Source: an uncultured Bacteriovoracaceae bacterium (GTDB lineage: Bacteria > Bdellovibrionota > Bacteriovoracia > Bacteriovoracales > Bacteriovoracaceae). Taken from it: 64,000 nt of DNA. Shown one piece after another: positions 2,625-23,930 of the stretch (position 1 is the first letter of the stretch; every line of letters starts with the position of its first letter). Under the pieces are notes generated by a model. The model did not search any database, had not been told where the DNA came from, and saw nothing but the letters and a program-made list of their open reading frames with translations. The stretch covers positions 1 through 64,000 of the forward strand of contig CALHBF010000002.1 in NCBI GenBank assembly GCA_937931205.1, given 5' to 3'. The position numbers were made by a program, and so were the translations under genes.

Positions 2625-3395
2625 TCATTCCTTTGTTATTTTCTTTTTAATCCACTCTACAGGAATTGAGGCCGGGTAAAAGTACTCACTCCACAATGCT
2701 CTCTCTTCTACTCCTTCAGGAAGTCCAAAATTATCCGGCTTTTCTTCAGGCATAATATAAGTTCCAAACATCTTATCCCAGACAGTAAAAGTAGCCCCCA
2801 TGTTGTGACCACGAGGAAGTAACCTCTTCTTTATATGATGCCATTGATGAAAATGAGGGCAACAAATGAAACGCAGAGGCTTTGGCATTCTGAAATCAAT
2901 ATTGGAGTGAAGAAAATATCCATGAATTGCAAACACAAAAAATAAAGCATCCATTACTTCATACGAAACTTTTAAAATGTGCATGGGAACCACGATAAAG
3001 AAAAGCATAAAAAACTCTTCACCATATCCATTACGATATCCTGAAGTGGCACTCACTTCTCTTGGCGTATGGTGAAGTTTATGAACATTTCGTCCGAATT
3101 TCGTTCGATGCATGTTCCAATGGATCATAAAAAGACCAAAATCAGCAATGATAAGTGCAATGAGAAACTCGGCCCATTGAGGAAGATCGTTCAGCCCCCA
3201 AGGAAGTAGCTTTCCCAAAAAAGACTCTCCCCCAGGAAAGAAGTAATAGAGCTGTGGTCCAAGATATCTATTAAGAAGGGCAACAGTGATATCTTTCCAC
3301 AGCCCTTCTTTAAAAAGTGCATAAGGGCGTCTTGGAAAAATTTTTTCCAACCCAATAATGATAAAAATACAAATGACATCTATTCCAAAAAACAT
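2625..3395 (-). CDS. Fatty acid hydroxylase / sterol desaturase family membrane protein
   Basis: A 256-aa integral membrane di-iron oxygenase-family protein. Visible histidine clusters are HWNMH (about 92-96), HKLHH (105-109), HGYFLH (158-163) and HQWHH (183-187), set between hydrophobic helices. This is the signature layout of the fatty acid hydroxylase superfamily. Such enzymes hydroxylate or desaturate lipids, sterols or carotenoids; the substrate cannot be told from sequence. The start was placed at the ATG three bases inside a possible GTG at 3398. It begins right after the stop of the upstream methylthiotransferase-like gene, so the two are probably one operon. Downstream lies the rRNA operon promoter on the same strand. 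No clear terminator is visible between them. Confidence 0.85.
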   Translation of the reverse strand: MFFGIDVICIFIIIGLEKIFPRRPYALFKEGLWKDITVALLNRYLGPQLYYFFPGGESFLGKLLPWGLNDLPQWAEFLIALIIADFGLFMIHWNMHRTKFGRNVHKLHHTPREVSATSGYRNGYGEEFFMLFFIVVPMHILKVSYEVMDALFFVFAIHGYFLHSNIDFRMPKPLRFICCPHFHQWHHIKKRLLPRGHNMGATFTVWDKMFGTYIMPEEKPDNFGLPEGVEERALWSEYFYPASIPVEWIKKKITKE

Positions 3396-3398
3396 CAC

Positions 3399-4619
3399 TT
3401 ACCTAAAATTAATAAAAGACCTAAGGGCAACGTAACTATGTCTCATAAGGACAGCACTATTAATGATAATCATACGCCAGCGCATATCAACCTCTGAAAC
3501 GTGATCTTTATATTTCATCGCTCCAGTCCCAGGTCTTGCTGTATAGGGAATGGCTAATACGGCATCAAAAGAGAAAACTGACTTTAAAGATTGCCAAAAA
3601 TCTTTGTTGGTCTCTCCTGGGAAGCCGACGATGATATTCGTTTTCACTACAAGATTGTGATTCATTTTCTTGAGTTTCTGAATACGATCTAAAACTATTT
3701 TAGGATCATATTCTCTGCCCATGCGTCTTACGATTGGAGCTGAGCCTGACTGAATAGGGAAATTGATATTTAAAACTCTCTGGTCTTGAAGCAATTGTTC
3801 CATGCGAGAAAACTGCTTAATAAAAAACATGGGTTCGAAATAGTTGATTACCAATTCAAACTGATTCGGAAACTTAAGAATTTGATCAAGAAGGTGTGAG
3901 AAGTCAGTTCCTATATCTACTCCATAGCACCCAATATCATCTCCAACCAGCCAAAACTTCTGGTGGCCTGCTTGTAAACCTTGATGGAACTCATCCAAAA
4001 TTTTATTAATCGGCTTACTCTTAACTTCACCCTTGGCATTTTTAATGGCGCAAAAAGTACACTTCCCTTTACAGCCTTGAGAAACAACAATTGAGTAGTA
4101 CTCAGCATTAACAATGGTCGTTTTTAATAAGTTGGATAAAGGCTGAATTCTTCTCTTAAGCAGAGTTTCCAACTTAAAAAGATAAGGACGCCATTTCAAG
4201 GCCAATTGATGACTATTGGAGAGATCATCAAAATCCTGAGAATCAAACATATGAGATTCGGTCGTCGTTTGGTCTTCTAACTTAAGAATTCTGTTGAGAG
4301 CTTGAATATCACCTGGAGCAAAATGCTCTCCTGAGTGAACTTCAGACATCCGTTTTTCATTAATCTTAGGTAAACACCCGCCAACGATAAATTCCTTCTG
4401 CGGATGTTCAGCTTTTAATTTATCAATGAGATCTAAGGTATAATTCTCTCTCTCGGTTGTGTAACCGCAGGTATTGATAATCACCACATCTGCTTCATTA
4501 ATCTTCTTTGTATTTTCTAGACCAGCTGCAATTAAATTTTCTCGATAACTTGAATTCTCCAAAAGATTGGTAATACAGCCTTCTGTCGTCGTTATCAGAT
4601 GAAATTTTTTAGTGGCCAT
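3399..4619 (-). CDS. MiaB/RimO-like radical SAM methylthiotransferase lacking the TRAM domain
   Basis: A 406-aa two-cluster radical SAM protein. The N-terminal MTTase (UPF0004) domain has its three cysteines in EGC (C14), NTC (C51) and GGC (C82). The radical SAM site is CKGKCTFC (C183, C187, C190). MiaB and RimO use these two 4Fe-4S clusters to insert a methylthio group, and their TRAM domain recognises tRNA or ribosomal protein S12. Here the protein ends shortly after the radical SAM barrel (after the ARPGTGA stretch), so no TRAM is present and a different substrate is likely. The start at 4619 was chosen for the AGGGGAAG ribosome-binding site just upstream; an in-frame start at 4643 is possible. 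A paralogue lies at 8196-9410. It is divergent from the next gene by about 50 bp. Confidence 0.82.
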   Translation of the reverse strand: MATKKFHLITTTEGCITNLLENSSYRENLIAAGLENTKKINEADVVIINTCGYTTERENYTLDLIDKLKAEHPQKEFIVGGCLPKINEKRMSEVHSGEHFAPGDIQALNRILKLEDQTTTESHMFDSQDFDDLSNSHQLALKWRPYLFKLETLLKRRIQPLSNLLKTTIVNAEYYSIVVSQGCKGKCTFCAIKNAKGEVKSKPINKILDEFHQGLQAGHQKFWLVGDDIGCYGVDIGTDFSHLLDQILKFPNQFELVINYFEPMFFIKQFSRMEQLLQDQRVLNINFPIQSGSAPIVRRMGREYDPKIVLDRIQKLKKMNHNLVVKTNIIVGFPGETNKDFWQSLKSVFSFDAVLAIPYTARPGTGAMKYKDHVSEVDMRWRMIIINSAVLMRHSYVALRSFINFR

Positions 4620-4667
4620 GACTTCCCCTAGTCCAAATAGCAATTTTCGAGTTAGTATAGACGATAT

Positions 4668-6032
4668 ATGAATGTTTGCTTTCTAAACCCACCGGTTACT
4701 CCTTATCGGAAGATAATGAGAAATTTCGATTGCGCCACTGAGTCTAAAGGTAATTATCTCTACCAGCCCTACGATTTTTTACTTTTGAGTGGAAAACTTC
4801 ATTCGGAGGATAAGCTCTTATTTATTGATGCCATCGCTCACCCTGAGTCAATTGATGCAATTACTCAGAAAATTAAACATTTTTCACCTCATGTAATTAT
4901 TGTGGCATTGGCCCAAACCAATTGGGAAGAAGACTTTCAACATTTGCAGAAAATTAGAGGACAATTCCCTCAAAGCTATCTTTTATGTTTCGGTGATGTT
5001 TTTATCGAAGATTGGCCGAACGATCAGATAAAACCTTGGGTTGATGGAGTTCTGAATTCTCCCGCTGATTTTGATTTCCAGAATATCGAAAAAAGTCTTA
5101 ATCAAAAGATCGGAATAAGAACTCATGTTTTTCATCCGTCTCAAGGTCTTAAGGCTCCGAGAACTTATCCAACGATCATGCCTCGTCACTTAGACTTTAT
5201 TAATAAAAAGTATCGCTGGCCCTTTGCTCGAGAATACATCTACTCAACTGTTTTCTTAAACTGGGGATGCCCATACTCTTGCAGCTATTGCATCATGTCC
5301 CAATTTCCTAATCTGCAAAGGAAACTTGACTCAGTAAAGGCCGAGCTAAAACAGCTGTCACACATGGGAATAAAAGAGCTCTACTTTGGAGATCGATCAT
5401 TTGGAATTCCCGAAGAAACGGTTTTAGAATTAATGGATTACATGATTCGACAAAACTTCGGCTTTACCTGGTCAACTTATTTTCACCCTAACCAATTCTC
5501 TTCACAACTTTTAAGGGCAATGAAGAAGGCCGGTTGCCACACTATTATCATTGGTATTGAAACAGCAGATGGCGAAGAATTAAAAAACTACAAACGCTTT
5601 ATCAAGAAAAATGTCATTACTGATCTCATCAGGGAAGCCCAAACATTAGAGATTGATATCTGCGCTGATTTTATCATTGGACTTCCTCATGATACCCGTA
5701 ACTCTATAGAGAAATTAATTAAGCTCTCAACAGAACTTCCTTTAGATTACGCTTCATTTAATATTGCAGCTCCTTTACCAGGCAGTGACCTAAGAAAACT
5801 AGTTAAGGATAAAAATAATGATTTTTCCGGGCATGATTCACTAGGAAAGAATAAATTAGAGTCTTTCTGCCAAGTCTCAGCTCATGAACTGCTGATTTTA
5901 AAACAAAAGGCCGTGAGAAGCTTCTATCTGCGTCCCCAATATTTGGCGAGACGTCTTTGTAAAATCAGGACATTTCCACAATTAATTATTCAGCTTCAAG
6001 AGGCCATTGGAATTATTTTTCGACAGAATTAA
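4668..6032 (+). CDS. B12-binding-type radical SAM protein
   Basis: A 454-aa protein. Residues 1-140 form a Rossmann-like region starting with NPP, where cobalamin-binding domains sit in this class, but the DxHxxG motif that contacts the lower axial face is not visible. The radical SAM motif is CPYSCSYC (C201, C205, C208), followed by the usual barrel (ELYFGDRSF, TIIIGIET) and a C-terminal FYLRPQYL segment common in B12-type radical SAM proteins. Members of this class carry out methylations and ring rearrangements. It is closely similar to 15742-17163, sharing an N-terminal R..RN..CA.ESKG block. No strong Shine-Dalgarno precedes the ATG. It converges with and overlaps 6029-7552 by 4 bases. Confidence 0.8.
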   Translation: MNVCFLNPPVTPYRKIMRNFDCATESKGNYLYQPYDFLLLSGKLHSEDKLLFIDAIAHPESIDAITQKIKHFSPHVIIVALAQTNWEEDFQHLQKIRGQFPQSYLLCFGDVFIEDWPNDQIKPWVDGVLNSPADFDFQNIEKSLNQKIGIRTHVFHPSQGLKAPRTYPTIMPRHLDFINKKYRWPFAREYIYSTVFLNWGCPYSCSYCIMSQFPNLQRKLDSVKAELKQLSHMGIKELYFGDRSFGIPEETVLELMDYMIRQNFGFTWSTYFHPNQFSSQLLRAMKKAGCHTIIIGIETADGEELKNYKRFIKKNVITDLIREAQTLEIDICADFIIGLPHDTRNSIEKLIKLSTELPLDYASFNIAAPLPGSDLRKLVKDKNNDFSGHDSLGKNKLESFCQVSAHELLILKQKAVRSFYLRPQYLARRLCKIRTFPQLIIQLQEAIGIIFRQN

Positions 6033-7552
6033 TAACCGATATCCTCTACTTCCAAGGTTATCTTTTTCTTTCTGAACATATTAAAAATAATTGACTCAAA
6101 ATTAGTAAGAGGCTTGCGTTTAATAAAGACGCGATAGAATCCGCCGACCATTCTCCAAGGGCGTAGCATTCCCTGAAGCGCATAAAAATAAAGGGTGAAC
6201 GAAACAACAAAAAACTTCAGCTCACGATTGCCGAAATGCTCAGACCAAGACTGCATTTGCGGAATATCGTTATTCAGACGGATATTGTTATCTAAAGAGT
6301 TATAATCATAATCAATTTTAAGCTGATCAAAGAGTTCAGTTTTAGGATAAGGAATAAAAGAAAGGCAAACCACATCACGGGCGCCAAGAAAAGCTAGGCG
6401 ATTTAGGAGCTTGAAAGTAGAAAACACTTCACCCAGTGTCTGCCCTGGAAATCCGAAGATCAATGCGATTTTTACAACAATTCCTAAACGAGAAGTTTCA
6501 TAAACAATTTTATTAAAATGTTTAATATCCAGTGCCTTCTTAATTCTGTCCAGAGTCTCATCATCACCACTTTCAGCTGAATAAAGTACTCGTGTGAGAC
6601 CTGCTTTCTTCATTTTTTTAAGAAGATTTACATCAAGAGATTCTGTTCGTGTCCCAATCGGAATGGCCCAAGTAACGCCTAACTTTTCACGAATAAGGGC
6701 ATCACAGAATTCGTTCATCCACCTTTTATTAATAACTAAGGTCAAATCGACGAAATCAATATGATCAACTCCATATCGAACAACATAGTCACGAATTTCA
6801 GAGACGACATCTTCTACTGGTCGAGCGAACCATTTTGATTCCCACATATTAGGAACAGTACAAAAAGTGCAGCTGTAAGGGCATCCTCGCGTGGCCACCA
6901 TAGGAATTGCTCGTCTGGAAAGCGAGTTCACTCCACAATGATTATCGAGATAGTTTTTGAGAGGAACACCTTCCCAAGAAGGACGAGCAAGATCCGTTAA
7001 ATTAGAACGTCGGCGTCTTCTCGGCGTTTCGATAATCTGACCTTCTCTCATGAAGGCAATCCCCTCAATCGTTTTAAAATCTCGGCCGGTTTCGATCGCA
7101 TCTAAAAGCTCAATGATTGTCTCTTCACCCTCACCGATAACACATGCGGTGATCTGAGGAAACATTTTAAGAATATAACTAGAACAAGCACTCACATGCT
7201 CGCCACCTAAAAAAACCTTAACATTAGGAAACTGTTCAAAGATTTTTTTCAAGATGAAAGAATCATATATCCAGCGATTAGAATGCATACTTTGCATACC
7301 AATCACTTGAACATCTTTAGGAATTTTAGCAACAATCTCGCTGACAGGAATTCCACCTAAGGCAAGATTCGTATTTTTCAGAACAATTCTACGGTTGATC
7401 CCCTCACCAGTTCCATCAACAATCGATGAATCATGTCCCGCTTTTCTTAGGGCACCATTTACATAGGCCGTTCCAATATCAGGAACAGCAGTAATGCTTG
7501 AAAGATGATTCACTGGATGGATAAAGGGTGTTCTGATGATAACAACTTTCAT
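6029..7552 (-). CDS. B12-binding-type radical SAM protein
   Basis: A 507-aa protein with an N-terminal Rossmann-like domain (about 1-150; GGEHVSACS and GEGEETI are typical of B12-binding radical SAM proteins), a linker, then the cluster motif CPYSCTFC (C224, C228, C231) and a TIM-barrel core (RVLYSAESGDD, KIALIFGFPGQT). The exact DxHxxG cobalamin motif is not seen. The reaction cannot be predicted; anaerobic methylation or cyclisation are known for the class. It is the last gene of a six-gene minus-strand operon and its ATG overlaps the stop of the methyltransferase gene by 4 bases. The C-terminal 100 residues have hydrophobic and basic stretches and may contact a membrane. Confidence 0.8.
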   Translation of the reverse strand: MKVVIIRTPFIHPVNHLSSITAVPDIGTAYVNGALRKAGHDSSIVDGTGEGINRRIVLKNTNLALGGIPVSEIVAKIPKDVQVIGMQSMHSNRWIYDSFILKKIFEQFPNVKVFLGGEHVSACSSYILKMFPQITACVIGEGEETIIELLDAIETGRDFKTIEGIAFMREGQIIETPRRRRRSNLTDLARPSWEGVPLKNYLDNHCGVNSLSRRAIPMVATRGCPYSCTFCTVPNMWESKWFARPVEDVVSEIRDYVVRYGVDHIDFVDLTLVINKRWMNEFCDALIREKLGVTWAIPIGTRTESLDVNLLKKMKKAGLTRVLYSAESGDDETLDRIKKALDIKHFNKIVYETSRLGIVVKIALIFGFPGQTLGEVFSTFKLLNRLAFLGARDVVCLSFIPYPKTELFDQLKIDYDYNSLDNNIRLNNDIPQMQSWSEHFGNRELKFFVVSFTLYFYALQGMLRPWRMVGGFYRVFIKRKPLTNFESIIFNMFRKKKITLEVEDIGY

Positions 7553-8199
7553 TGTTCAATCTTTTTAAAAATAAAAATATTCTCAATACCCAATAAAGGT
7601 ATCCTTCTTTCAAAGAAACGTAAAATTTTCCACGCCCAAATAGGACACCTATTGGCGGGAGCAAGGCCGAAAGAGGTAAAGTCCAGTAACTTTAGACCAG
7701 CTGCCTGGGCCAGTTGTTCGGTATATCTTTTGCGATAACGAAGACTGCGATGCTCATTAGGATCGAGGAAGTAGAGCAATATAGTTAAAGGATGGAAAGG
7801 ATTAGGCTCAATCAATACCACATACCTATTACTATAATCTGCCATTAACTTGAGGGCCAAGACATCATCATCAACATGATGAAGTAAGTTTGACTCAAAA
7901 ACTAAATCAAAAGATTTCAACTCTCCCAACTCAAAAATATCGCGTTGGATTTGGGTCTTAATCGGGTTCTTATTCAACATCGAAGATGAAGCATCGCAGA
8001 CTGTAAGTTCACTAAGCTTCGTTGATAATGGGTAAGAAAAGAAACCATCGCCTGCACCTAATTCAAGACAGCTCGTTATCTTCTCTGCGAAATGAGTAAA
8101 GATGTAGGAAATTCTGGCCTGAGCGTAAGTTCGGACGATGGGATGATCCCAACTTCTTCGTTTTTTGGCCTGCTGATCACTCCAGATATCCTTACTCAT
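7549..8199 (-). CDS. Class I SAM-dependent methyltransferase
   Basis: A 216-aa protein with the SAM-binding motif I LELGAGDGFF (about residues 45-54), a motif II-like acidic region (LTVCDASS) and DLVFESNLLHHV, typical of Methyltransf_11/25-type enzymes. It probably methylates a small molecule made by the surrounding cluster. The gene overlaps both neighbours by 4 bases (stop/start overlap), so it is translationally coupled inside the operon that runs from the JmjC-like gene to the B12-type radical SAM gene. Confidence 0.8.
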   Translation of the reverse strand: MSKDIWSDQQAKKRRSWDHPIVRTYAQARISYIFTHFAEKITSCLELGAGDGFFSYPLSTKLSELTVCDASSSMLNKNPIKTQIQRDIFELGELKSFDLVFESNLLHHVDDDVLALKLMADYSNRYVVLIEPNPFHPLTILLYFLDPNEHRSLRYRKRYTEQLAQAAGLKLLDFTSFGLAPANRCPIWAWKILRFFERRIPLLGIENIFIFKKIEQ

Positions 8200-9410: not shown

Positions 9411-9414
9411 AAAT

Positions 9415-10464
9415 TTATTCTAGGGATTTTTGAGTATGTCTGGCAAGGTTGCAGCCCTGGCATGCCGAGGGAAATTTCTGACGACGGAGTTTTTGCCAGA
9501 CTAATTTAAACTGTGGAGTTCTCCATACTTTCTTCAGGTCAAAATCCAGATCTCTGACATGGGACAATTTCAAAGAAAGATCACAGGCAGTTACTGTCCC
9601 GTCCCCGTAGAGACTTAAAACAGAATACGGTTTTTCACAGGATTTGACCCCAAACTGCGCAGGAGCCTTAAGATAGGCCATGGCAGAAGGTAAACTTGGC
9701 TTAACTATCTTCTTTCTGAGCCATTCTTCTAATCCTTCGGGTGTTTCCAGACTGTTTTGAACATTTCCCTCTTGCTCAAAAAACTCTTCAAGATTATCAA
9801 AAACCTTCCCTCCCCCTCGAGTTATATTCTGAAAAGGAAGTGAGATAGAATGAGATTGTACGGGTAAATGAGAAACCATTTTTTCGATTTCTGCTAGCTG
9901 ATGAATATTCTCAGGCTGAATTAACGTTTTAATTCCCAGATGAGGAAATTTTGATTTTTTTGCAGACTTTCTTTCATCAATTTTTTTAATACTATCAATC
10001 ATCAATTTGAAATGATTTTCACTCTTTCTCAATTGATTATGAGTTAATTCTGTCCCATCAATATTTAAAAGGAGTTGAAATAACTTTTTATCAATAAAAG
10101 TTGAAATCATCTCTGAAGTTAAATGAATCCCATTCGTTATCAAGGATACTTTAAAGCCATAATCTAAAACCATTTCAAGCCAAGGAAGAAAGCCGGGATA
10201 TTCCAATGGCTCTGCCCCCGCGATATCAATCACAGTATGCTTGGGAAGTTTTGATAAAACGTTTTTCCAATCCTCAATGCTCAGACTCTTTTCTTCTTGA
10301 TTGAGAAAAGGCTGATGAAAACAAAAATCACATAGGAGAGAACATTTATTAGTCAGCCTTATTCTCAGCACTAGAGGCGGAAGATTGATCCAATCTCCAA
10401 TCAAAGCATGAATCTTGCCGTAAAAGATCTGGGACTGTTGATAAAGTAGATGAATTAGTTTCAT
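9415..10464 (-). CDS. Radical SAM protein with SPASM-like C-terminus
   Basis: A 349-aa protein with the radical SAM motif CSLLCDFC (C41, C45, C48), the core GAEPLEYPGF (a GGEP variant) and SLITNG, and a C-terminal cysteine region (KSC, TAC, SAC, GC) that probably binds an auxiliary 4Fe-4S cluster. SPASM/twitch enzymes act on ribosomally made peptides, proteins or sugars. It is a paralogue of the upstream gene 10461-11534 along its whole length, overlapping its stop by 4 bases. No precursor peptide gene is visible next to it. Confidence 0.78.
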   Translation of the reverse strand: MKLIHLLYQQSQIFYGKIHALIGDWINLPPLVLRIRLTNKCSLLCDFCFHQPFLNQEEKSLSIEDWKNVLSKLPKHTVIDIAGAEPLEYPGFLPWLEMVLDYGFKVSLITNGIHLTSEMISTFIDKKLFQLLLNIDGTELTHNQLRKSENHFKLMIDSIKKIDERKSAKKSKFPHLGIKTLIQPENIHQLAEIEKMVSHLPVQSHSISLPFQNITRGGGKVFDNLEEFFEQEGNVQNSLETPEGLEEWLRKKIVKPSLPSAMAYLKAPAQFGVKSCEKPYSVLSLYGDGTVTACDLSLKLSHVRDLDFDLKKVWRTPQFKLVWQKLRRQKFPSACQGCNLARHTQKSLE

Positions 10465-11534
10465 TGAGCGACATGCTTCTTAAGACAACAGCCAGCACAC
10501 GCAAGATTTCTTTGTGCTTTTTTTTGTCCCATAAAACTCTTAAAGGCCTGCATCTTGTTATTGGCACTTAATGTTTTCAAAGAAAAATTAAGATCACGAA
10601 TGTTTGTTATCGCTAACCCAAGATCGCAGGGCGTGATCACTCCGTCTTGATAAATAGTCACGATACTTTGATGTTTGTGGCAATTTCGCGGAAGTACCTG
10701 ATTTGGGATCGCGAAATAATTTGAAAGTTCACTCAGAGAGATATCTGGTCTGATATTAATCAGGCTGCCAAACTTTCCTTTTAAAGAAAAAATTGTCTGA
10801 ACCATTAACTCTCTTTCTTTTGATCTAAAACTTATCCTATTTCCACTAAGAAATTTGTCATTATCCATTGATGAGCCATCAGCAAAACCATTTCTTGCTT
10901 CATTTTCAAACAATAAATTCAAAGTGATTCCATCCACTCTTTTATTAACAATCAGCTCTTCACATAACTCCATGAGAGAAGTTGCATTGGCAGGAGTTAC
11001 AGTTAACTTGGCGACGATTTTAGGATACTTTGATTTCAACTCTCTTTTCGTAAGTAATACTTCATTAATAAAATCCAAGGCTTTTTTAAAACTGCCTTCA
11101 CCTCTAACCTGATCATGTATTTTCTGAGGTCCATCTAAAGAAACCATCAGATGCATCAGTTTTTTACTTACCATCAGAGGAATAATCCCCTCTTTACGAA
11201 CAGTTCCGTTGGTAATCAGGGAGACTTTTAATTTTCGCTTAAGCATCAATGAGAGGATTTCAGAAAAATTCGGAGTTAATAGAGGCTCTCCCCCAGTAAT
11301 ATCAATCAGGGTATAAAAGGGAAGTTGATCAATAATTTTCTGCCACTCATTCAATGTCAGTAGCTGATCATTTTTTTTATTTAAACTCGAACCGACATAA
11401 CAATAATGGCAGCTCAGATTACATCTATTGGTGATTCGCAATCTGACAACTAAAGGATTAAGAGGAAGAAAATGAGACAATGAACCCCAGATGTTTACAG
11501 CATTATCAAAAATTAGGTTCATTATTTTCAACAT
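10461..11534 (-). CDS. Radical SAM protein with SPASM-like C-terminus
   Basis: A 357-aa protein with motif CNLSCHYC (C38, C42, C45), GGEPLLTP and SLITNGT, and a C-terminal auxiliary-cluster region (RNC, TPC, LAC, GCC). The start was placed at the ATG at 11534, which matches the N-terminal length of the paralogue at 9415-10464 and follows the stop of the JmjC-like gene by about 16 bases. A longer in-frame reading to 11582 would overlap that gene. The substrate is unknown. Confidence 0.78.
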   Translation of the reverse strand: MLKIMNLIFDNAVNIWGSLSHFLPLNPLVVRLRITNRCNLSCHYCYVGSSLNKKNDQLLTLNEWQKIIDQLPFYTLIDITGGEPLLTPNFSEILSLMLKRKLKVSLITNGTVRKEGIIPLMVSKKLMHLMVSLDGPQKIHDQVRGEGSFKKALDFINEVLLTKRELKSKYPKIVAKLTVTPANATSLMELCEELIVNKRVDGITLNLLFENEARNGFADGSSMDNDKFLSGNRISFRSKERELMVQTIFSLKGKFGSLINIRPDISLSELSNYFAIPNQVLPRNCHKHQSIVTIYQDGVITPCDLGLAITNIRDLNFSLKTLSANNKMQAFKSFMGQKKAQRNLACAGCCLKKHVAQ

Positions 11535-11550
11535 GGCACAAACTCTTTCT

Positions 11551-15749: not shown

Positions 15750-17163
15750 TACAATGACAGTAAAACCTAAAATTACCTTTGTTAATCCTCCGACACCCCA
15801 AGGAAGAAAGTTTACCCGTAATATAGGGTGTGCCAGTGAATCGAAGGGTGGCTATCTACTCCTTTGCATTGATTTTGTTATTCTTAGCGGGGTTCTTAGA
15901 AATCACTTTGATATCTCATTTGTTGATTGTGTTGGTGAACAACTTAGTCAGCAAGATGCAATCAACCAAATCAATCAAATCAAGCCTGATATTATCATCT
16001 GTGCTCTCATTGATGCTATTTTTGAAAATGATTTTCAATTTCTCTCACATCTAGCGACCTCATACCAAAAGGCGAAAATTTATGTCTTAGGTGATGCCTT
16101 TATTGAGGAAGACAACGTTAAACTGGTTTCTCCTCTGGTAAAGGGGATTATTACCACGCCTTTCTTACTCAATCCTGAAGATTTCCTCCAACATTCTCTC
16201 CAGAATACTAGTGAAGCGATTACAGGATTAAGAAAGCAAGACGAGTACCAAAACTTTACAAAGTCCCCTCAGCAAGCCCAGTTCCCTACTCCTCAATATG
16301 AATTATTCTTAAATGACTTCTATCAATGGCCATTTGCTAGACATCCTTCCTATCTCACAGTCAGCACTACATGGGGATGCCCATTTAGTTGCAGCTATTG
16401 CACAGCTTCTAGCTTTCCTTTTCATTATCGTGAAGCGAGCAAAGTTGTGGAGGATTTTAGTTACATCAAGAGCCTAGGAGTTAAGGAAGTTTATATTACT
16501 GATCTCTCATTCGGTTATCCCAAAGAGAACACTGTCGATTTTTTAAAACAGCTTATTGAGAAAAAATTGAATATGAGCTGGTCTACATATTTTCATCCTT
16601 CTCGTTTTGAGCCTGAGTTTATGGATCTTATGAAGCAGGCCGGTTGTCATACCATTACTATTGGAGTTGAAACGAAGGATCTCAGTATTCTTAAGAAATA
16701 TGGAAGACATCTTAATGATGACACCATCAAAAATCTCATTTCTTATTGTAAAAAAATTGGAATAGAAGTTTGTGGAGATTTTATCATCGGATTTAAAGAA
16801 CAGAATCAGAATGAAATTGAAGAAAGTGTAAAATACGCCAAAGAACTTAAATTAGACTATGCCTCTTTTAATCTCCTTTCTCCCCTTCCAGGATCAACCA
16901 TCCGCAAAGAAGCCCAACAAAGAGGTCTTATTAAACAAGTAAACCAAGGTTTTGATAGTTTAGGGCAAGGAGGAATTCTTGTTTTAGGCGATATCTCGGA
17001 AGACAATCTCCGCCAACTAAGAAATAGGGCCGTAAAAAGTTTTTATCTCAGACCTCATTTTTTATTTAAGAAAGTTATGAAGATAAAAAGCTTTGATCAT
17101 TTCATGCTGCAATTTAAAGAATTTATTTCACTATTTACGAAGGTATTTCAGTCAAAAAAATAA
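15742..17163 (+). CDS. B12-binding-type radical SAM protein (paralogue of 4668-6032)
   Basis: A 473-aa protein with an N-terminal NPPTP block and RK.TRN.GCASESKG (about 22-36) shared with the gene at 4668-6032. The Rossmann-like domain lacks a visible DxHxxG. The radical SAM motif is CPFSCSYC (C213, C217, C220). The TITIGVET core and C-terminal FYLRPHFL segment again match the paralogue. The two copies sit in different operons on either side of the cluster, suggesting related but separate steps. The gene ends at a convergent terminator. Confidence 0.8.
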   Translation: MSNTMTVKPKITFVNPPTPQGRKFTRNIGCASESKGGYLLLCIDFVILSGVLRNHFDISFVDCVGEQLSQQDAINQINQIKPDIIICALIDAIFENDFQFLSHLATSYQKAKIYVLGDAFIEEDNVKLVSPLVKGIITTPFLLNPEDFLQHSLQNTSEAITGLRKQDEYQNFTKSPQQAQFPTPQYELFLNDFYQWPFARHPSYLTVSTTWGCPFSCSYCTASSFPFHYREASKVVEDFSYIKSLGVKEVYITDLSFGYPKENTVDFLKQLIEKKLNMSWSTYFHPSRFEPEFMDLMKQAGCHTITIGVETKDLSILKKYGRHLNDDTIKNLISYCKKIGIEVCGDFIIGFKEQNQNEIEESVKYAKELKLDYASFNLLSPLPGSTIRKEAQQRGLIKQVNQGFDSLGQGGILVLGDISEDNLRQLRNRAVKSFYLRPHFLFKKVMKIKSFDHFMLQFKEFISLFTKVFQSKK

Positions 17164-17189: not shown

Positions 17190-19733
17190 TTAGTTTTCTG
17201 TGATTTTGTGAATTACACCTGTTTCTAAAATTCTGTGACGTCCAGCTGGTATATTTTTAAGAACATCTACTTTCCCTGATGGCCATCTAATATTCAAAGT
17301 TTCAATCTTATCATTTTGACCTAAACCAAAATGAATAACACCTTCTGATTGCATGGCCCCATTATTGGCCACAATATGACGAAGATATTTCTTTCCGCCA
17401 ATTGTGGCATCTAGAATAGCTCCGACTCCATCACGGTTAGAGTTTGTTCCATTCAGAGCAATGATTACACTTTTTTGCTTGTTCTCTTTTTTATTTAAAA
17501 ACACCTGAACTGCTGGATGACGGTTCTTATCAGTACCAGGGTCTCCGTTTCTCAAAACAAGATCCATTTTTCCATCTTTATTGAAATCAGCTGTACCTAC
17601 AATATAACCATCTGCAATTGAGTCTACTCCCTCTAAGAAACCCACTTCAGTGAACGTTCCATTACCATTATTACGGAATAAACAATTTCTCTGAAAGCCT
17701 GCCATCGAAGGATGAATACCTTTCAATTCTTTCATATTCTCAACATCACCTTGGAAATCAGTGAGGATACGCATAAAGCTCGTATTGGCCTCTTCAATCC
17801 CGACACTGGAATTTAGAACTTCTTGATAATCGAAGTTGTTAATAGCATTTGCTCTGACAAATAAACTTGATAGATCATGCTTTTCTGAATTTCCCGACCA
17901 AAGTCCATTGGCCACATAGATATCCATATTTCCATCATTGTTATAATCAATAACCTCGACTCCCCCGATTCCTTCTCCACAACCACTAATTTGAGTCAGG
18001 GCGGTAATATCAGAATAGTCTTTGGAATTATTAGATTTGAAAACTCTAACGCCAAATGTTCCCGGAAGTTTTGAATAGTCAGAGAAATTATTGCGAAGTG
18101 AGTGATAGAGTCTTTCTGCCGGCAAGAAGTTAACATTAGTATAAATAAATTCCAGTTTGCCATCATTATCCAAATCCGCAGCAGTGAACCCCATTCCAAA
18201 ATCATAGTTTGTTAAACCAATCTTATCTGCGACTTGAGTAAATGAACCAGTGCCATCATTTTTATAGAGTGGACTTAGATTGGCCTTATCATCTACAACA
18301 ACAATATCCATATCTCCATCGAGGTCATAATCAATCCCCGTTGAAGTGTGAGCAAAAACGACAGCAGCTTCAGGATAACCATTCGGGAATTTTTTATTAT
18401 GTACTAATGGAAGCTTTTCTTTGGTCACTTCTTTAAATTGAAGTTCAGACAAGTTATAGAAGAGACCTTGCGGATGAAATTCCTTCTTACCTTCGTAGCC
18501 ACTTTCATTTTTATCTAGAACAGTGAAATCTTTTGCTCCAGGGAATCCAATGTAGAAATCAAGCAGTCCATCTTTGTTATAATCAGCTACAGCAGAAGGC
18601 ATGGCATAGTAAGATGGAAATCTATTCTTGATATGTCCTTGCCTTTGAAATTTTTCTCCTAGATTCTTATAGACAACAATATCTTTGCCGGCTTCTTCAT
18701 TGGGAGCAAAACGAACTAACAAGAGATCTTTTTTTCCGTCATTATCGAAATCTGAAATGACAGCACTTTTCACCAGTGTTTCATTTTCAATCCCTAGCTT
18801 TTCATTAGAAAGCTTTTTAAAACTTCCATCTGGTAATCCCTTGAAAACTTCAACCGCTCCCATATGACCAACAACCATATCAACCTGATCATCTCCATCG
18901 ATATCTCCAAGGGCCAGAGCGTATCCACCACGTCGAATCGCTTCTTTCCTAAGGTAATTAGATAACTCTCCATCTTGGAAAGACGCTACTTCTTGAAATG
19001 AGGCTTCTTGATTTTTAAGACTTTCGCCTTGGATGAAAGAAACGTTTGAGATAGACCAGTTTTTTTCGTTCGTTTTTTTCTCTACTCTAAAACTCAAAGT
19101 TCCACGATCATGCTGACGCGATTTGTTTTTATCTTCCCCACGAATGTCCATGCGGGCCTCAATTTCAAAAACTTGAGGAAGTGATGTCAGAGGATCTCTT
19201 TCTGCGATCTGAGTATTTAATGAGTAAGGACTAATTTTTACGAATTGGATTTTTTTAAAGTTTCCAAGATAATTGGCCCACCATTTATGGGCATTTTTCA
19301 TGTTCACACTTTCTTTATTCTTTTTCCATTGGCTTTCAAAGTAATCACCTTTTCCTTCATAACTTGATTTCTCAAGCGTTTGGAAAGTAGCATTCTTCTT
19401 GGCAAGGCCTTCAAAGTTTACTTTTTTATCAAGAATCATTTGTTGAAATGGGAAAAGAACTTCTGAAATAACTTTCTGGAAAAGAGCTTCATCGGCCAAA
19501 GCTAGATTCAAGGCTTCCTGAGAAAGTTCTGCTCCGTCGGAAGATCCTAGTTTCTTTCCTTGTCCTCCAAAATTCTGAGGGAGCTGCGCCAATGGAATAC
19601 TTTTTACCTTCGTTCCTTGATGAATTTCAGCAAGAATTTTTTTACCATCTACCCTTTGAGCCTCTGACCACACCTGTGTCGATGCAAAGAAAAAAACAAG
19701 TGATAACGAACTCTTGAAAGTTAAGTTTTTCAT
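17190..19733 (-). CDS. Secreted FG-GAP/VCBS-repeat protein with ASPIC/UnbV domain
   Basis: An 847-aa protein with an N-terminal signal peptide (about 1-23, cleavage near VWSEA). The middle (about 240-740) carries many beta-propeller repeats with calcium-binding DxDxDG-type loops (DIDGDDQVD, DFDNDGKKD, DYNKDGLLD, DLDNDGKLE, DYNNDGNMD, DFNKDGKMD). The C-terminal 100 residues match the ASPIC/UnbV domain (GVGAILD, GLGQNDKIE.L.IRWPSG). Such CRTAC1-like proteins are extracellular adhesion or polymer-binding proteins. It is a single gene on the minus strand, divergent from the peptidase/exporter operon. Confidence 0.88.
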   Translation of the reverse strand: MKNLTFKSSLSLVFFFASTQVWSEAQRVDGKKILAEIHQGTKVKSIPLAQLPQNFGGQGKKLGSSDGAELSQEALNLALADEALFQKVISEVLFPFQQMILDKKVNFEGLAKKNATFQTLEKSSYEGKGDYFESQWKKNKESVNMKNAHKWWANYLGNFKKIQFVKISPYSLNTQIAERDPLTSLPQVFEIEARMDIRGEDKNKSRQHDRGTLSFRVEKKTNEKNWSISNVSFIQGESLKNQEASFQEVASFQDGELSNYLRKEAIRRGGYALALGDIDGDDQVDMVVGHMGAVEVFKGLPDGSFKKLSNEKLGIENETLVKSAVISDFDNDGKKDLLLVRFAPNEEAGKDIVVYKNLGEKFQRQGHIKNRFPSYYAMPSAVADYNKDGLLDFYIGFPGAKDFTVLDKNESGYEGKKEFHPQGLFYNLSELQFKEVTKEKLPLVHNKKFPNGYPEAAVVFAHTSTGIDYDLDGDMDIVVVDDKANLSPLYKNDGTGSFTQVADKIGLTNYDFGMGFTAADLDNDGKLEFIYTNVNFLPAERLYHSLRNNFSDYSKLPGTFGVRVFKSNNSKDYSDITALTQISGCGEGIGGVEVIDYNNDGNMDIYVANGLWSGNSEKHDLSSLFVRANAINNFDYQEVLNSSVGIEEANTSFMRILTDFQGDVENMKELKGIHPSMAGFQRNCLFRNNGNGTFTEVGFLEGVDSIADGYIVGTADFNKDGKMDLVLRNGDPGTDKNRHPAVQVFLNKKENKQKSVIIALNGTNSNRDGVGAILDATIGGKKYLRHIVANNGAMQSEGVIHFGLGQNDKIETLNIRWPSGKVDVLKNIPAGRHRILETGVIHKITEN

Positions 19734-19942: not shown

Positions 19943-20311
19943 ATGGACATGGACCCTATTAAATTCAAAGCACTTCAAAATCGTTTGAATAGAGAAGGAT
20001 TAGTGGAACTGCGAATTGCCTCCAACTCAATGGAACCAGTTCTCAAAACAGATGATGTGATTTCAGTCCACACGACAAATAAGTCGGCATTAAAAAAATT
20101 TGATATCATCGTTTTTTGGCAGAATAATCGAATTATCTGTCACCTCTTATGGTCAATACAAACGATGAAATCTGGAGAGGAAGTATTGATTACTAAATCA
20201 TTAAAGGATCCTCAGGAGATTGATATCCCCATAAAAGAAGGTTTACTGCTAGGAAAGGTAAATGCCAAAATTCCCTTGCTCCTTAAAATAAAAATGCTAC
20301 TTAAAAATTAG
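19943..20311 (+). CDS. S24/S26-like peptidase (signal peptidase-like), small
   Basis: A 122-aa protein with the motif SNSMEP (serine at about residue 28), the catalytic SM.P box of S26 signal peptidases and S24 LexA-like proteins, followed by FDIIVFWQNNRIICHLL. The His in that segment sits where SipW/SEC11-type peptidases have histidine in place of lysine. It is shorter than leader peptidases and has no clear membrane anchor. Four bases separate it from the ABC permease gene, so it probably processes or assists cargo of that exporter. S24/S26 peptidases also occur in RiPP-like clusters. A TATACT -10-like box lies just upstream without a clear -35. Confidence 0.55.
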   Translation: MDMDPIKFKALQNRLNREGLVELRIASNSMEPVLKTDDVISVHTTNKSALKKFDIIVFWQNNRIICHLLWSIQTMKSGEEVLITKSLKDPQEIDIPIKEGLLLGKVNAKIPLLLKIKMLLKN

Positions 20312-20315
20312 AAAT

Positions 20316-21080
20316 ATGATTAACAACTTTCACTGGAACCAAATTCAAATTTTGACTCTTGCTAATATGAAAGCGAGATATAGAAAAACTATCATCGGTT
20401 TTTTTTGGGTGGTACTCAACCCCATCCTCATGTACTCAGTTCAAGCTTTTGTATTTCAGAAGTTTTTAAAGATCGATCTACCGAATTATTACTTATTTCT
20501 TCTGGGTGGATTACTGCCCTGGATATTTATTAATTCATCATGGGATTCATCAACTCCAAGTATCGTTAGCAATGCTTCTATTCTTAAAAGTTTTCAGATT
20601 TCTCCGATGATTATTCTTTCATCTTCTATTCTCGATAACTTCATCAACTTTCTTACCGCATTTACAATTTTAGTGATTCCAGCACTTGTTTTTGCAGGAA
20701 ACGTTCAGCTCTCCTTACTAATGCTTCCATTGGCCGCCATTACATTAATGTTTTTCACACTCATTTCTACTGCCATTCTAGCGATTCTCCACGTCTTCTA
20801 TAGAGATGTGAAATACGTTACCCATTTCTTAATGAGTGTTTTATTTTTTTTGACTCCTATTTTTTATCCACAAACTTTTGTTCCTCCTCACTACCAATGG
20901 CTAGTAGAACTGAATCCAATCTATATGATTATTAAGCCTTTCCGTGCGAGTATTTATGGCGGAGAAATTACGGAGATTCTTTTCATGCTCCTGAAGGCCA
21001 ATGGACTCTCCTTCTTACTTCTACTATCATTCTTAAAAATTTGGAAAACTAAGAAAAATGAACTTTTCCTCAAGCTCTGA
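20316..21080 (+). CDS. ABC-2 type permease, Wzm/TagG-like
   Basis: A 254-aa inner membrane protein with six hydrophobic helices and an N-terminal amphipathic region (LANMKARYRKTIIGFFWVVLNP) typical of polysaccharide and teichoic-acid export permeases (ABC2_membrane). The LNP and YRD-type cytosolic motifs are present (LHVFYRDVKYV). It pairs with the ATPase encoded next, which overlaps its 3' end by 23 bases. In this cluster the cargo may be a glycolipid or the product of the radical-SAM genes. That is inference. Confidence 0.85.
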   Translation: MINNFHWNQIQILTLANMKARYRKTIIGFFWVVLNPILMYSVQAFVFQKFLKIDLPNYYLFLLGGLLPWIFINSSWDSSTPSIVSNASILKSFQISPMIILSSSILDNFINFLTAFTILVIPALVFAGNVQLSLLMLPLAAITLMFFTLISTAILAILHVFYRDVKYVTHFLMSVLFFLTPIFYPQTFVPPHYQWLVELNPIYMIIKPFRASIYGGEITEILFMLLKANGLSFLLLLSFLKIWKTKKNELFLKL

Positions 21081-21837
21081 AAAAATTGTCTCAATAAAGG
21101 GTCTTAATCTCTTTTATCAGATTGATCATTATCATAATCAATCGGTAAAAGATTATTTGATCAAGCTGGTTCAAAATCCTCTTCGCACACTGAGAGGAAA
21201 AAATCGCTATTATCATGTTTTAGAACAGATTAATCTGGATATTTATCGTGGTGATCGTGTTGGTCTCGTCGGAATTAACGGAGCAGGAAAAACAAGCCTC
21301 TGCCGCTGTATCGCCGGGATGATTACTCCCAATATGGGTGAAGTACAAATAAACGGTAAAGTTCGCGCCATCTTTGATACCAGTGTCGGCATTGTTCCAG
21401 AATTAACAGGCAGAGAGAATGCAGAAGTCATTAGTGCTCTCATTTATCCAGAAATGGATAATAATGAGAGGAAATCTATCATTGATGATTCTTTAGCCTT
21501 CAGTGACCTTGGAGAATTTGAGAATGTGCCTTACCTTAAATATTCAAAAGGCATGCAAACAAGACTCAGTCTTTCTCTCGTTTCTGCCAAGGGATGTGAC
21601 CTACTTATTCTAGATGAAGTTTATGATGGAGCAGATATTTTTTTTCAAGAAAAAATATCACAAAGGGTTATTAAAATGATTCAAGAATCAGGTGCTGTTA
21701 TTTTTGTCTCTCATTCAATGGAGCAAATTGAAAAAACCTGCAATCGTCTCATTATTTTAGATCAGGCTAAAATTATTTTTGATGGCCGTACAGAACAAGG
21801 TATTGAAGTATTTAAAAGTCTCAAAATTAAATCTTGA
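21058..21837 (+). CDS. ABC transporter ATP-binding protein, Wzt/TagH-like
   Basis: A 259-aa ATPase. Visible are Walker A GINGAGKTS (about 76-84), a degenerate signature YSKGMQ followed by RLSLSL, Walker B LLILDEVYDGAD and the switch histidine VSHSME. The long N-terminal region before Walker A (YYHVLEQINLDIYRGDRVGL) matches the polysaccharide/polyol-phosphate exporter class. It lacks the extra C-terminal carbohydrate-binding domain of O-antigen Wzt. It forms an exporter with the preceding permease. Its end overlaps the convergent dehydrogenase gene by about 11 bases. Confidence 0.87.
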   Translation: MNFSSSSEKIVSIKGLNLFYQIDHYHNQSVKDYLIKLVQNPLRTLRGKNRYYHVLEQINLDIYRGDRVGLVGINGAGKTSLCRCIAGMITPNMGEVQINGKVRAIFDTSVGIVPELTGRENAEVISALIYPEMDNNERKSIIDDSLAFSDLGEFENVPYLKYSKGMQTRLSLSLVSAKGCDLLILDEVYDGADIFFQEKISQRVIKMIQESGAVIFVSHSMEQIEKTCNRLIILDQAKIIFDGRTEQGIEVFKSLKIKS

Positions 21838-22840
21838 TAATCACTCTGCCAGAAATTTTGCGATCCTGGGCAGTCTGAAAAGCCTCCGCAACTTGTTCAA
21901 AGTCAAACTCATGAGTAATCAGCTCTTTTCCTAACTCATCAAGGGAATCTTTCCAGTAGTTGCATGCAAGCTTTAATGACTCTTCAGTACATCCCTGAAT
22001 CCAAGAAAGTTGGGCCTGTTTAGTAAAGAATCTAAAAGTTTTAAAAGGAATATCTTTAATGTACTTACTGAGAATAATTGCTTCAAATCCCTGGCTTCCA
22101 AAATGGTCTAAATACTTAAATCCTCCAGTTCCACCTAAATGATCTCCGGTAGCCTCGATAATGAAAGGATAAGAATCTTTAAGATCTGGATTAATGAGAG
22201 CATGGGGAAGAAGATGGCATGCAAGGCCCAGTCTATTCGCCCGTAAAATTCTTGAAGGGATCACTTCCAGCATTTCAAATTTTATATTTTCTCTTCTTAA
22301 GACCAAGGCCATCGATAGCCCAAGTAAACCCGCTCCCATAATAAGAACTTTGCCCTGAGCTTTAAGAAGTTTTTCGCGAGATTTTAACCAGACATTCTCG
22401 GCTACAGCTAAAATTTCAAATAAAGTTGAGTTCATGCTCACTGTACCTGGTATTTTCACTAAGGAGATGGCCGGAAGATGAGCATATTCACGTAACATTC
22501 CATAGTGGGCGGTTAACCATTTCACATTTTGACATTTATCAATTTGCTGTAAACAGCTCTCACATTCGCCGCATTTAATTTTGTTGGCGGAAGTTACATA
22601 ATCACCGACTTGAAAGTGAGAAACTTTTTCTCCAACTCCTACCACCTCTCCAACCCACTCATGTCCTAGAATAATTTCATTTATATAATCAAGTTCCATG
22701 GTATGAAGATCAGACCCACAAATACCGACCCATTTATTCTTAATCAGAACATAATTCTCACTAGCCTCGGAGGGAATCTCTTCTGGGCGAAATTCAAAAG
22801 ATTGATTAGCTCTGATGTAATAAATAACTCTATTTTTCAT
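21827..22840 (-). CDS. Zinc-dependent alcohol dehydrogenase family (MDR) protein
   Basis: A 337-aa medium-chain dehydrogenase. The catalytic-zinc motif GICGSDLHTME, the GHEWVGEVVGVG block and four structural-zinc cysteines (CGECESC...C) are all visible. The NAD(P)-binding motif is MGAGLLGLSMAL. It probably oxidises or reduces an alcohol or sugar group. The start at 22840 overlaps the stop of the upstream radical SAM gene by about 11 bases, so the two form an operon at the edge of the radical-SAM island. Confidence 0.87.
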   Translation of the reverse strand: MKNRVIYYIRANQSFEFRPEEIPSEASENYVLIKNKWVGICGSDLHTMELDYINEIILGHEWVGEVVGVGEKVSHFQVGDYVTSANKIKCGECESCLQQIDKCQNVKWLTAHYGMLREYAHLPAISLVKIPGTVSMNSTLFEILAVAENVWLKSREKLLKAQGKVLIMGAGLLGLSMALVLRRENIKFEMLEVIPSRILRANRLGLACHLLPHALINPDLKDSYPFIIEATGDHLGGTGGFKYLDHFGSQGFEAIILSKYIKDIPFKTFRFFTKQAQLSWIQGCTEESLKLACNYWKDSLDELGKELITHEFDFEQVAEAFQTAQDRKISGRVIIKI

Positions 22841-23930
22841 TTGTGCCTTTTCGCAATTCCATCGCCTTGGCCAAAAAAACCTTATACTGCAAATAAAGAT
22901 TGGGCTCACGCTTTGCTACTATTTTATCTAACAGAGATCTTAACATTTTCACTTCTGGAGCGGCAGCAGGTTGTCCCAGCAATAATTCATCTAAAACTTT
23001 ATTTGTTCTATTTAACCCTTCTTGAAGAAGCGACTCAGGAAGAACTCCCGGATGCATAAAACTTGGTGAATCAATTTCAGTAAATATTGGTAAATGATGC
23101 GTGCGGGCTAATTCTGATTGATAAAATTCGATCAAATCTCCCAAGGAATTCCAATTAGTAGTCATGAGCATCGCATGAAGATGAATTTCGAGATGAGGAA
23201 AACGATTTGCATTCAGAAATGTAACATTTTCTTTTATTTTCTTCCAGGAAGCCGGATAGCGAATGAGCTCATAGTTCTCCCCTACGGAATCAATGCTTAA
23301 AAGTAGATCTACTTTTTTAAAGACTGAAATTAACTTTAAAATCTCTGCATTTATATTGGTTAAATTTGAATAAATACGAAGTGTAATATTCTGAGCATAC
23401 CCACTTCTTCCCAATATTTTAATAAAATCAATCATTCGCTTAGAAATGAATGGCTCACCGCCAGTCAAAGTGATCATCTCTAAATTAGGTAAAATCTCTT
23501 TGAGCATCTTCTCATTCAACTCTGCTTGCCAGGCCAATACTTTGGGAAGACCCATTTCATTATGATAGAGATTATTCAGCTTATAAGAATAAAGTGGGGA
23601 GCACATGAGACATTCAAGATTACATTCATTATTAAAAGTAACATCGAGATACCGAACAGCAACCTCAACAGGATTCTGACCAAAACGATTAATATAGTCA
23701 TGGCGAGGAGAAATGCAGCCAGCTTTTTCTAAATCAAAACATCCCTGACAAGCAGCTGGGACTTCACCTTTTAACATCTGCTCTCTGAATACTTTTAAAT
23801 GATCTAGTTTGAGTAGATCGTCTTCTTTTTTTGAATCTAATCCGCCGATTTGATGACAACAAAGCCTGGGAGCAGATTGAGCTCCAAGACTGAGACTTAC
23901 CCAAGGAATAGGACAAATAAACTTATTCAT
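22830..23930 (-). CDS. Twitch/SPASM-type radical SAM protein
   Basis: A 366-aa protein. An N-terminal cysteine region (ICPIPW ... RLCCHQ at 5-26, then CQGC at about 61-64) precedes the radical SAM motif CNLECLMC (C103, C107, C110) and TGGEPF. An N-terminal C.PW.....CC block with later cysteines is typical of the 'twitch domain' radical SAM proteins. The target is unknown. It is the first gene of a two-gene operon with the zinc dehydrogenase, consistent with radical modification followed by a redox step. Confidence 0.8.
   Translation of the reverse strand: MNKFICPIPWVSLSLGAQSAPRLCCHQIGGLDSKKEDDLLKLDHLKVFREQMLKGEVPAACQGCFDLEKAGCISPRHDYINRFGQNPVEVAVRYLDVTFNNECNLECLMCSPLYSYKLNNLYHNEMGLPKVLAWQAELNEKMLKEILPNLEMITLTGGEPFISKRMIDFIKILGRSGYAQNITLRIYSNLTNINAEILKLISVFKKVDLLLSIDSVGENYELIRYPASWKKIKENVTFLNANRFPHLEIHLHAMLMTTNWNSLGDLIEFYQSELARTHHLPIFTEIDSPSFMHPGVLPESLLQEGLNRTNKVLDELLLGQPAAAPEVKMLRSLLDKIVAKREPNLYLQYKVFLAKAMELRKGTNEK

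Follow-up and report, generated by a model that had tools for sequence, protein, structure and literature searches.

A radical SAM-rich, exchangeable island in a Bacteriovoracaceae genome with a possible role in tailoring an exported surface glycan

We analyzed a 64,000-nucleotide stretch of DNA (the window) from an uncultured Bacteriovoracaceae bacterium (GenBank assembly GCA_937931205.1, contig CALHBF010000002.1), in which an island of 18 protein genes at positions 2625 to 23930 (21.3 kb) is dominated by radical S-adenosylmethionine (SAM) enzymes. As judged from sequence comparisons, the island is probably an accessory, exchangeable locus at a fixed site, contributing to the biosynthesis of a surface glycan or glycolipid that is exported by an ATP-binding cassette (ABC) transporter and whose sugars are tailored by radical SAM enzymes, a reading that we hold with moderate confidence. 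The window lies at the beginning of contig C2; the genome comprises 3.08 Mb in 30 contigs and is estimated to be 86% complete. Coordinates are positions in the window, and the labels G, L, and C denote genomes, fetched stretches, and contigs, respectively.

Occupancy of the site and recurrence of the island families

A first-pass annotation made from the sequence alone had counted nine radical SAM genes over about 21 kb, and this count was borne out: nine of the 18 proteins scored above the cut-off of Pfam family PF04055. They account for nine of the 30 radical SAM matches in the whole genome while occupying 0.7% of its length, where 0.2 would be expected (binomial P of ~5e-13, or 7e-11 after multiplication by the number of windows). 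The GC content of the island was 37.4%, versus 39.8% in the part of the window to its right. All of the genes listed in that annotation were present as open frames where it had placed them, and an 847-amino-acid (aa) FG-GAP/ASPIC protein (17190 to 19733) was absent from its list. At the left end of the window, a partial rRNA operon (16S, tRNA-Ile, tRNA-Ala) is followed by the island and then by a multi-heme protein gene. The genes and their borders are as follows.

2382..2457, minus strand: tRNA-Ala(TGC) of the rRNA operon; bounds the variable site on the left, as in congeners
2625..3398, minus strand: FAH, fatty-acid-hydroxylase-superfamily protein (PF04116, E of 3e-22)
3399..4643, minus strand: MTT1, methylthiotransferase-like radical SAM protein without TRAM (PF00919 and PF04055; TIGR00089, 232 bits versus a cut-off of 251)
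4668..6032, plus strand: B12a, AprD4/HpnJ-like radical SAM protein by profile comparison; B12-binding domain not detected
6029..7552, minus strand: B12b, cobalamin-type radical SAM protein (PF02310 and PF04055; BchE and P-methyltransferase are the best profiles, below cut-off)
7549..8199, minus strand: MT, SAM methyltransferase (Pfam); same neighbors in L047
8196..9410, minus strand: MTT2, second TRAM-less methylthiotransferase-like radical SAM protein, 36% identical to MTT1
9415..10464, minus strand: SPASM1, radical SAM/SPASM protein (borderline SPASM match)
10461..11582, minus strand: SPASM2, radical SAM protein, SPASM1 paralogue (34%); later start likely
11551..12561, minus strand: Cupin_8/JmjC-like protein with HxA replacing HxD; candidate halogenase-type or AspH-type site
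12686..14095, plus strand: B12c, cobalamin-type radical SAM protein adjoining the JmjC gene; B12-binding just under cut-off
14097..15749, plus strand: MEM, polytopic membrane protein of 550 aa, weakly suggested to be GT-C-like; no Pfam match
15742..17163, plus strand: B12d, AprD4/HpnJ-like radical SAM protein by profile comparison, B12a paralogue (38%)
17190..19733, minus strand: ASPIC, FG-GAP/UnbV-ASPIC propeller protein (Pfam), with an apparent signal peptide read by eye
19943..20311, plus strand: S26, small protein resembling signal peptidases (no match reaches its cut-off)
20316..21080, plus strand: Wzm, ABC-2 permease (PF01061, single match in the genome)
21058..21837, plus strand: Wzt, ABC ATPase (PF00005); C-terminal carbohydrate-binding domain not detected
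21827..22909, minus strand: ZnDH, zinc-type dehydrogenase (PF08240); judged by eye to start more probably near 22840
22830..23930, minus strand: TWITCH, twitch-domain radical SAM protein (NF033640, 227 bits versus a cut-off of 170)
24019..26865, minus strand: multi-c-type-heme protein of 948 aa (CxxCH motifs by eye), beside cytochrome b-like genes; right border, outside the island

The island fills the gap between the tRNA-Ala of the rRNA operon and the cytochrome gene. The latter, encoding the 948-aa multi-heme protein, was found in 21 of the 26 genomes of the genus at 22 loci, two of them in G011. The site was empty at 10 of the 22 loci, with the tRNA-Ala lying 119 to 1263 bp from the cytochrome gene. 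Five loci (L171 to L175, from G015, G003, G018, G011-C46, and G008) held another, conserved cassette of 13 kb, with the tRNA-Ala 13.3 to 13.9 kb away. This alternative cassette encodes six CxxxCxxC proteins of approximately 350 to 380 aa that are 68 to 99% identical between genomes; the one of the six tested with Pfam matched PF04055, and in L172 the six gave no NCBIfam match at E <= 1e-15. A window-type set was present at two loci, those of the window genome (G000) and G011-C41, and contig ends cut the site at five. Since congeners are either empty or differently filled here, the locus behaves as an exchange site, and our guess is that exchange occurs by homologous recombination between the conserved borders. 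No integrase was seen in Pfam and NCBIfam scans of the island proteins. When three island proteins were compared to plasmids by tblastn, all matching records were below 60% identity and all rows shown were below 30%. The tRNA-Ala(TGC) gene is present in the window both upstream (2382 to 2457) and downstream (254 to 329) of the 16S gene, with the upstream copy forming the border of the variable site and recurring in congeners. One protein of the alternative cassette combines a prepilin-like N_methyl domain with an S74 chaperone domain.

The G011-C41 stretch contains the families B12b-type, B12a-type, SPASM12, SP_352 (twice), rSAMs, GT9, GT2a, FAH, S26, Wzm, Wzt, and GT1, with the same cytochrome gene alongside. 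MTT was absent from its visible part, and the contig stops short of the tRNA. The presence in G011 of two versions of the cytochrome locus (C41 and C46) means that this genome is perhaps a mixed bin.

Relatives of the MTT proteins (E <= 1e-50) were found in 16 of 368 genomes of the phylum, including the window genome itself, and in 14 of 181 genera; the only congener among them was G009. Nineteen stretches were fetched around these genes. Twelve of the other 15 genomes carried at least one further island family nearby, and 10 carried further radical SAM families. The island families therefore co-occur in other genera and families, rather than being scattered and never found together, and this together with the window-type set in G011-C41 supports the proposal of a dedicated pathway. 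The gene set is not conserved as a block and forms a variable mosaic. Identities of the relatives ranged from 63 to 68% for JmjC (G062 and G201), 44 to 70% for the B12c type, 35 to 74% for the B12b type, and 36 to 55% for ASPIC, relatives of which occurred in G201, G100, and G102. Wzm and Wzt relatives were also present around MTT genes elsewhere in the phylum. G201, which belongs to a different family within the phylum, carried S26, Wzm, Wzt, ASPIC, JmjC, and a weak MEM relative together with two MTT genes, four radical SAM genes of the B12b/c type, and one of the B12a/d type. A partial island was present in L076, from the record of the cultured Bacteriovorax sp. DB6_IX. In L047 the order MTT2-MT-B12b was kept at 43 to 74% identity, with the B12b copy 74% identical. 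Among the 24 rows listed, MTT stood beside a B12b/c type 12 times, GT2a beside GT9 four times, and JmjC beside a B12b/c type three times. L106, a metagenome-assembled genome stretch from Bacteroidota, encoded two MTT and seven B12-type radical SAM proteins, Wzm, and Wzt, with Wzt_C and PMT_2 matches below cut-off. The G011-C41, L106, L098 to L100, and C13/C16 stretches matched although they were not used in building the family profiles.

Genes related to glycans were common around the relatives. The unassigned genes of their islands included GT2, GT9, GT1, carbamoyltransferase, methyltransferase, PhyH, and DegT types, with several lacking a Pfam match. In 14 stretches (L046 to L059) from 10 genomes, 124 neighbors not labeled as radical SAM lay at most 8 kb from an MTT gene, and GT2 was the commonest Pfam assignment among them (10), followed by ABC ATPase (five), ASPIC (four), and carbamoyltransferase, DegT, GT1, and FA_hydroxylase (three each). 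The entire window genome has five GT2 matches. One of its other contigs carries the order GT2a-GT9-SP_352-SP_352-MTx-rSAMs (C13:1959-7258), and another (C16, 24 to 37 kb) carries two CarbSP genes, an S74-like protein, Carb, SPsmall, and GT1 (one strong and one weak match), as well as an SDR and a DegT-like protein that were both read by eye. These two regions add six radical SAM genes, such that with the window they account for 15 of the 30 in the genome. The window, C13, and C16 together comprise 24 families, and in G062 a single 38-kb contig united 18 of these, including JmjC, the B12b/c type, FAH, MEM, MTT, ZnDH, Wzm, and Wzt, and was without the B12a/d type, a separate CarbSP, ASPIC, S26, MT, and MTx. 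This union is the strongest sign that the three regions serve one pathway, of which the island probably encodes only a part in the window genome.

Enzymes of the island

The three classes assigned to the radical SAM genes in the first-pass annotation held in outline. Two proteins were indeed MiaB/RimO-like, with MTT1 and MTT2 each matching both UPF0004 (PF00919) and PF04055. Of the four proteins called B12-type, only B12b passed the B12-binding cut-off. Of the three called SPASM/twitch, one had a borderline SPASM match, one had none, and one (NF033640) was above its cut-off. The proposed coregulation fits three same-strand overlaps of 4 bases (7549 to 7552, 8196 to 8199, and 10461 to 10464) and does not fit the overlap at 6029 to 6032, which is convergent, or the division of the genes into seven strand runs.

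MTT1 and MTT2 share with MiaB, RimO, and MtaB the UPF0004 domain, its three cysteines, and the CxxxCxxC motif. In a 17-row alignment, Cys 59, 90, 191, 195, and 198 were invariant, C23 was at least 90% conserved, and the three UPF0004 cysteines and CxxxCxxC were kept. They differ from these enzymes in lacking a TRAM domain (no Pfam match in either protein), in a shorter C-terminal tail, and in forming a separate, well-supported clade. The 15 island-type rows of a 65-row tree formed one clade with 100/100 support, and the tail after a GFPGE-like motif, which was measurable in 54 of the 65 rows, was 72 to 91 aa long in these 15 rows versus 131 to 159 aa in 18 ordinary rows (L003 to L020). L077, L079, L100, L104, L105, and L111 are among the loci with rows excluded from the tree by length or score filters. 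Neither protein reached the curated TIGR00089 score, MTT2 giving 201 bits. Related short-tailed rows were also found in Thermoplasmata, Geobacteraceae, Chloroflexota, and Bacteroidota. Around the distant relatives (34 loci, L079 to L112), 13 of 121 neighbors were radical SAM and two were GT2 genes, with four neighbors in L105 excluded from the count as near-duplicates of those in L104; L098, L099, L100, and L106 were the most island-like of these loci.

For B12c, the B12-binding score was 31.5 bits versus a cut-off of 32.1, and B12a and B12d gave no B12-binding match at E <= 0.001. The nearest solved relative of B12a and B12d was AprD4 of apramycin biosynthesis (6fd2), which matched a nine-row profile of the two at E of 5e-32 over almost the full length (profile 5 to 417, chain 8 to 420), the radical SAM cluster region included. 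AprD4 is described as a radical SAM diol dehydratase that acts in paromamine deoxygenation with an NADPH-dependent reductase partner (available text of PMC5461906). The dehydrogenase gene of the island could play the reductase role. Such near full-length profile matching is what B12a and B12d have in common with AprD4. They differ in scoring far under the AprD4 equivalog cut-off (NF033070, 68.6 and 78.4 bits versus 500), and no hopene cyclase was found in the window genome, a negative of moderate weight given a genome 86% complete and no control genome over the cut-off. SPASM1 scored 21.6 bits versus a SPASM cut-off of 21.5, SPASM2 had no SPASM match yet is 34% identical to SPASM1, and neither reached the score of an NCBIfam maturase equivalog.

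The JmjC-like protein aligned to JMJD5 and FIH, and the HQD of JMJD5 was replaced by HAA in all three close orthologues, which retain the second His as well as GxK. We read this motif in 31 of the 41 matches of the Cupin_8/JmjC family in the phylum (L113 to L142). The third residue was Ala or Gly in 21 of the 31 aligned rows, Asp or Glu in 10, and never anything else. GxK was present in all 31 rows and the second His in 30, with L116 ending before it. Because the replacement of the iron carboxylate is thus selective, a decaying pseudoenzyme is disfavored. Halogenases dependent on Fe(II) and 2-oxoglutarate (2OG) carry an HxA or HxG...H iron site. AspH is a hydroxylase with the same carboxylate-less site, and halogenation of its substrate was not found according to the available text of the report (PMC13168262); the HxA motif is therefore insufficient as proof of a halogenase. 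The JmjC-like protein has in common with these halogenases and AspH the two retained His residues and Ala or Gly at the carboxylate position, and it differs from them in that its fold relatives by sequence are of the JMJD5/FIH type. The HxA/HxG family may be a new lineage of carboxylate-less 2OG enzymes. A B12b/c-type radical SAM gene adjoined the JmjC gene or lay one gene off at 8 of 30 loci (L113 to L115, L122, L123, L127, L132, and L137). An AlphaFold2 model of the protein, built from three sequences, had a confidence (pLDDT) of 37 and was not used.

Wzm and Wzt scored above the Pfam cut-offs for PF01061 and PF00005, respectively, the former being the only such match in the whole genome, and their best NCBIfam matches were galactan Wzm and Wzt, below the equivalog cut-offs. 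The model of MEM had a pLDDT of 53, and GT-C-type enzymes (PimE, PglB, and AftA) made up 6 of its 10 top Foldseek rows (best E of 0.33), which hints weakly that MEM is a GT-C enzyme. A sequence comparison of MEM to the PDB gave no match at E of 1 or lower, and the MEM profile did not match the PMT_2-like protein of L106. The best profile matches of the S26-like protein were below cut-off; its Ser and His were conserved in three copies, and a transmembrane segment was not apparent by eye. No precursor-like small open reading frame was present in the three intergenic gaps searched, which do not include the gap at 2458 to 2624; apart from the annotated genes, these contained only chance-like frames of 21 to 40 aa. 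The island had no Pfam or NCBIfam match to PqqD, a peptidase-exporter, or YcaO. Small S74-chaperone-like proteins with a conserved 'YLDVFAGSD'-like stretch were seen at five places (L046:18909-19409, L050:16965-17441, L144:8975-9400, L176:15729-16244, and L054:5965-6729). One such protein contains a PqqD domain. Those of L050 and L054 directly adjoin radical SAM/SPASM genes, and small proteins of this kind could be self-cleaving substrates of the adjoining radical SAM enzymes.

Assignment of the pathway

The first-pass annotation had left the product as a modified lipid, sugar, or peptide, and this choice can be narrowed. A sugar or glycan is the most likely because of the ABC-2 exporter, the glycosyltransferases and sugar-modifying genes in relatives and in C13 and C16, and the finding that, among solved proteins, AprD4 is closest to B12a and B12d. 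In such a pathway, cytoplasmic glycosyltransferases working at the inner membrane would form a glycan linked to a carrier, and B12a and B12d would remove or rearrange a hydroxyl of its sugars, perhaps with ZnDH as the reductase. B12b and B12c may catalyze C-methylation or cyclization, and the MTT pair may place sulfur or a methylthio group onto an unactivated C-H of a small molecule rather than of tRNA or a ribosomal protein. MT, the JmjC-like protein, and FAH would make final modifications, Wzm and Wzt would carry the finished glycan through the inner membrane, and ASPIC, the propeller protein, would act outside the cytoplasm. What the sequences show directly is the gene content, how it recurs, and the polymorphism of the site, and the substrates of the individual enzymes are inferred.

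Several results weigh against this glycan assignment. None of the 18 proteins was recognized as a glycosyltransferase by Pfam or NCBIfam, Wzt has no detected form of the carbohydrate-binding domain that many Wzt proteins of O-antigen systems carry, and the distant MTT relatives, with two GT2 genes among their 121 neighbors, lie mostly outside glycan surroundings. The fetched stretches of G150, G305, and G115 held no further island family, and those of G009 (a 4-kb contig) and G307 held one each. The family profiles were built from the same islands, making the presence counts partly circular. Composition varies so widely between islands that a single common product is unlikely, and the incompleteness of the genome, at 86%, is a limitation. 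The S74-like, PqqD-like, and S26-like island proteins also fit a peptide or protein pathway.

In that alternative, which we consider unlikely, the SPASM/twitch enzymes would act as maturases on a peptide or on a protein destined for secretion (ASPIC, S74-type, or pilin-like), with cleavage by the S26-like protein and export by the ABC pair. It draws on SPASM1 and SPASM2, whose top NCBIfam matches are peptide and cofactor maturases, albeit far below cut-off, on the S74-like proteins of relatives' islands (one with PqqD) and the pilin-like S74 protein of the alternative cassette, and on the Ser and His retained in S26. It is opposed by the lack of a precursor-like frame in the three gaps and of PqqD, peptidase-exporter, and YcaO matches in the island, by an ABC pair whose best named matches are galactan exporters, and by the recurrence of glycosyltransferases in the islands. 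Still less probable is a pathway for a modified membrane lipid (hopanoid-, ornithine-lipid-, or ladderane-like) in which sugars are secondary. FAH has partial similarity to OlsE (67.5 versus 475 bits), HpnJ and ladderane-type profiles are among the higher matches of B12a to B12d, all far below cut-off, and MEM is polytopic; the failure to find a hopene cyclase counts moderately against such a lipid, and the lack of any other lipid-pathway family match in the island, the Wzm/Wzt pair, and the glycosyltransferase associations also speak against it. That unrelated accessory genes merely gathered at an insertion hot spot, with no common pathway, is very improbable: the strong mosaicism between islands, the alternation at the site, and the seven strand runs would suit it, and the recurrence of the same family pairs and the MTT2-MT-B12b order kept in L047 would not.

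The proposed surface glycan pathway can be compared to known systems. ABC-dependent O-antigen and polysaccharide loci likewise have a Wzm/Wzt pair and strain-variable content at a fixed site; in the island, variation of this kind would arise from radical SAM chemistry. Their glycosyltransferases, DegT aminotransferase, and SDR-like genes occur here only in relatives or on other contigs, and the island differs from them in that half of its 18 genes are radical SAM genes, no glycosyltransferase family is recognized inside it, and its Wzt lacks a detected C-terminal domain. The 36-kb lipooligosaccharide plasmid of Brachyspira hyodysenteriae carries six genes annotated as 'Radical SAM domain protein' that lie with rfb genes and genes for glycosyltransferases and vary among strains (available text of PMC4267127). 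Radical SAM genes in a surface-glycan locus thus have a printed precedent, by annotation only. That locus differs in being plasmid borne, and MTTase-like, JmjC-like, ASPIC, and Wzm/Wzt proteins are not named in the available text of the report (PMC4267127). No published description of the island itself was found in the open-access literature searched, most subscription journals being outside this scope.

Radical SAM enzymes perform chemistry that is otherwise hard to reach, and a recurrent, exchangeable set that joins methylthiotransferase-like, cobalamin-type, and AprD4-like members with an exporter provides a concrete test case for the tailoring of coat sugars by such enzymes. If the glycan assignment is correct, a class of sugars not yet described would come within reach, with possible relevance to surface variation in predatory bacteria and their relatives. 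A bolder version, which we regard as doubtful, is that of a mosaic "chemotype locus" in relatives of predatory bacteria, at which whole radical SAM cassettes are swapped, in the manner of O-antigen loci, at the single site between the rRNA operon and the cytochrome gene. It would give a coat glycan with methylthio, C-methyl, and deoxy groups, perhaps also halogens, through a TRAM-less MTT clade that acts on small molecules and is shared with archaea and through a JmjC-fold HxA/HxG family that would be a new lineage of halogenases. The HxA/HxG JmjC-like family is a separate lead and directly testable.

Two further features were observed. L046:14846-17650 encodes a 934-aa protein in which a carbamoyltransferase is fused to SPASM and then to radical SAM (24.8 bits versus a cut-off of 29.5), an unusual order. 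In the window, a match to 6S RNA (RF00013) above the gathering score lies at 59065 to 59255.

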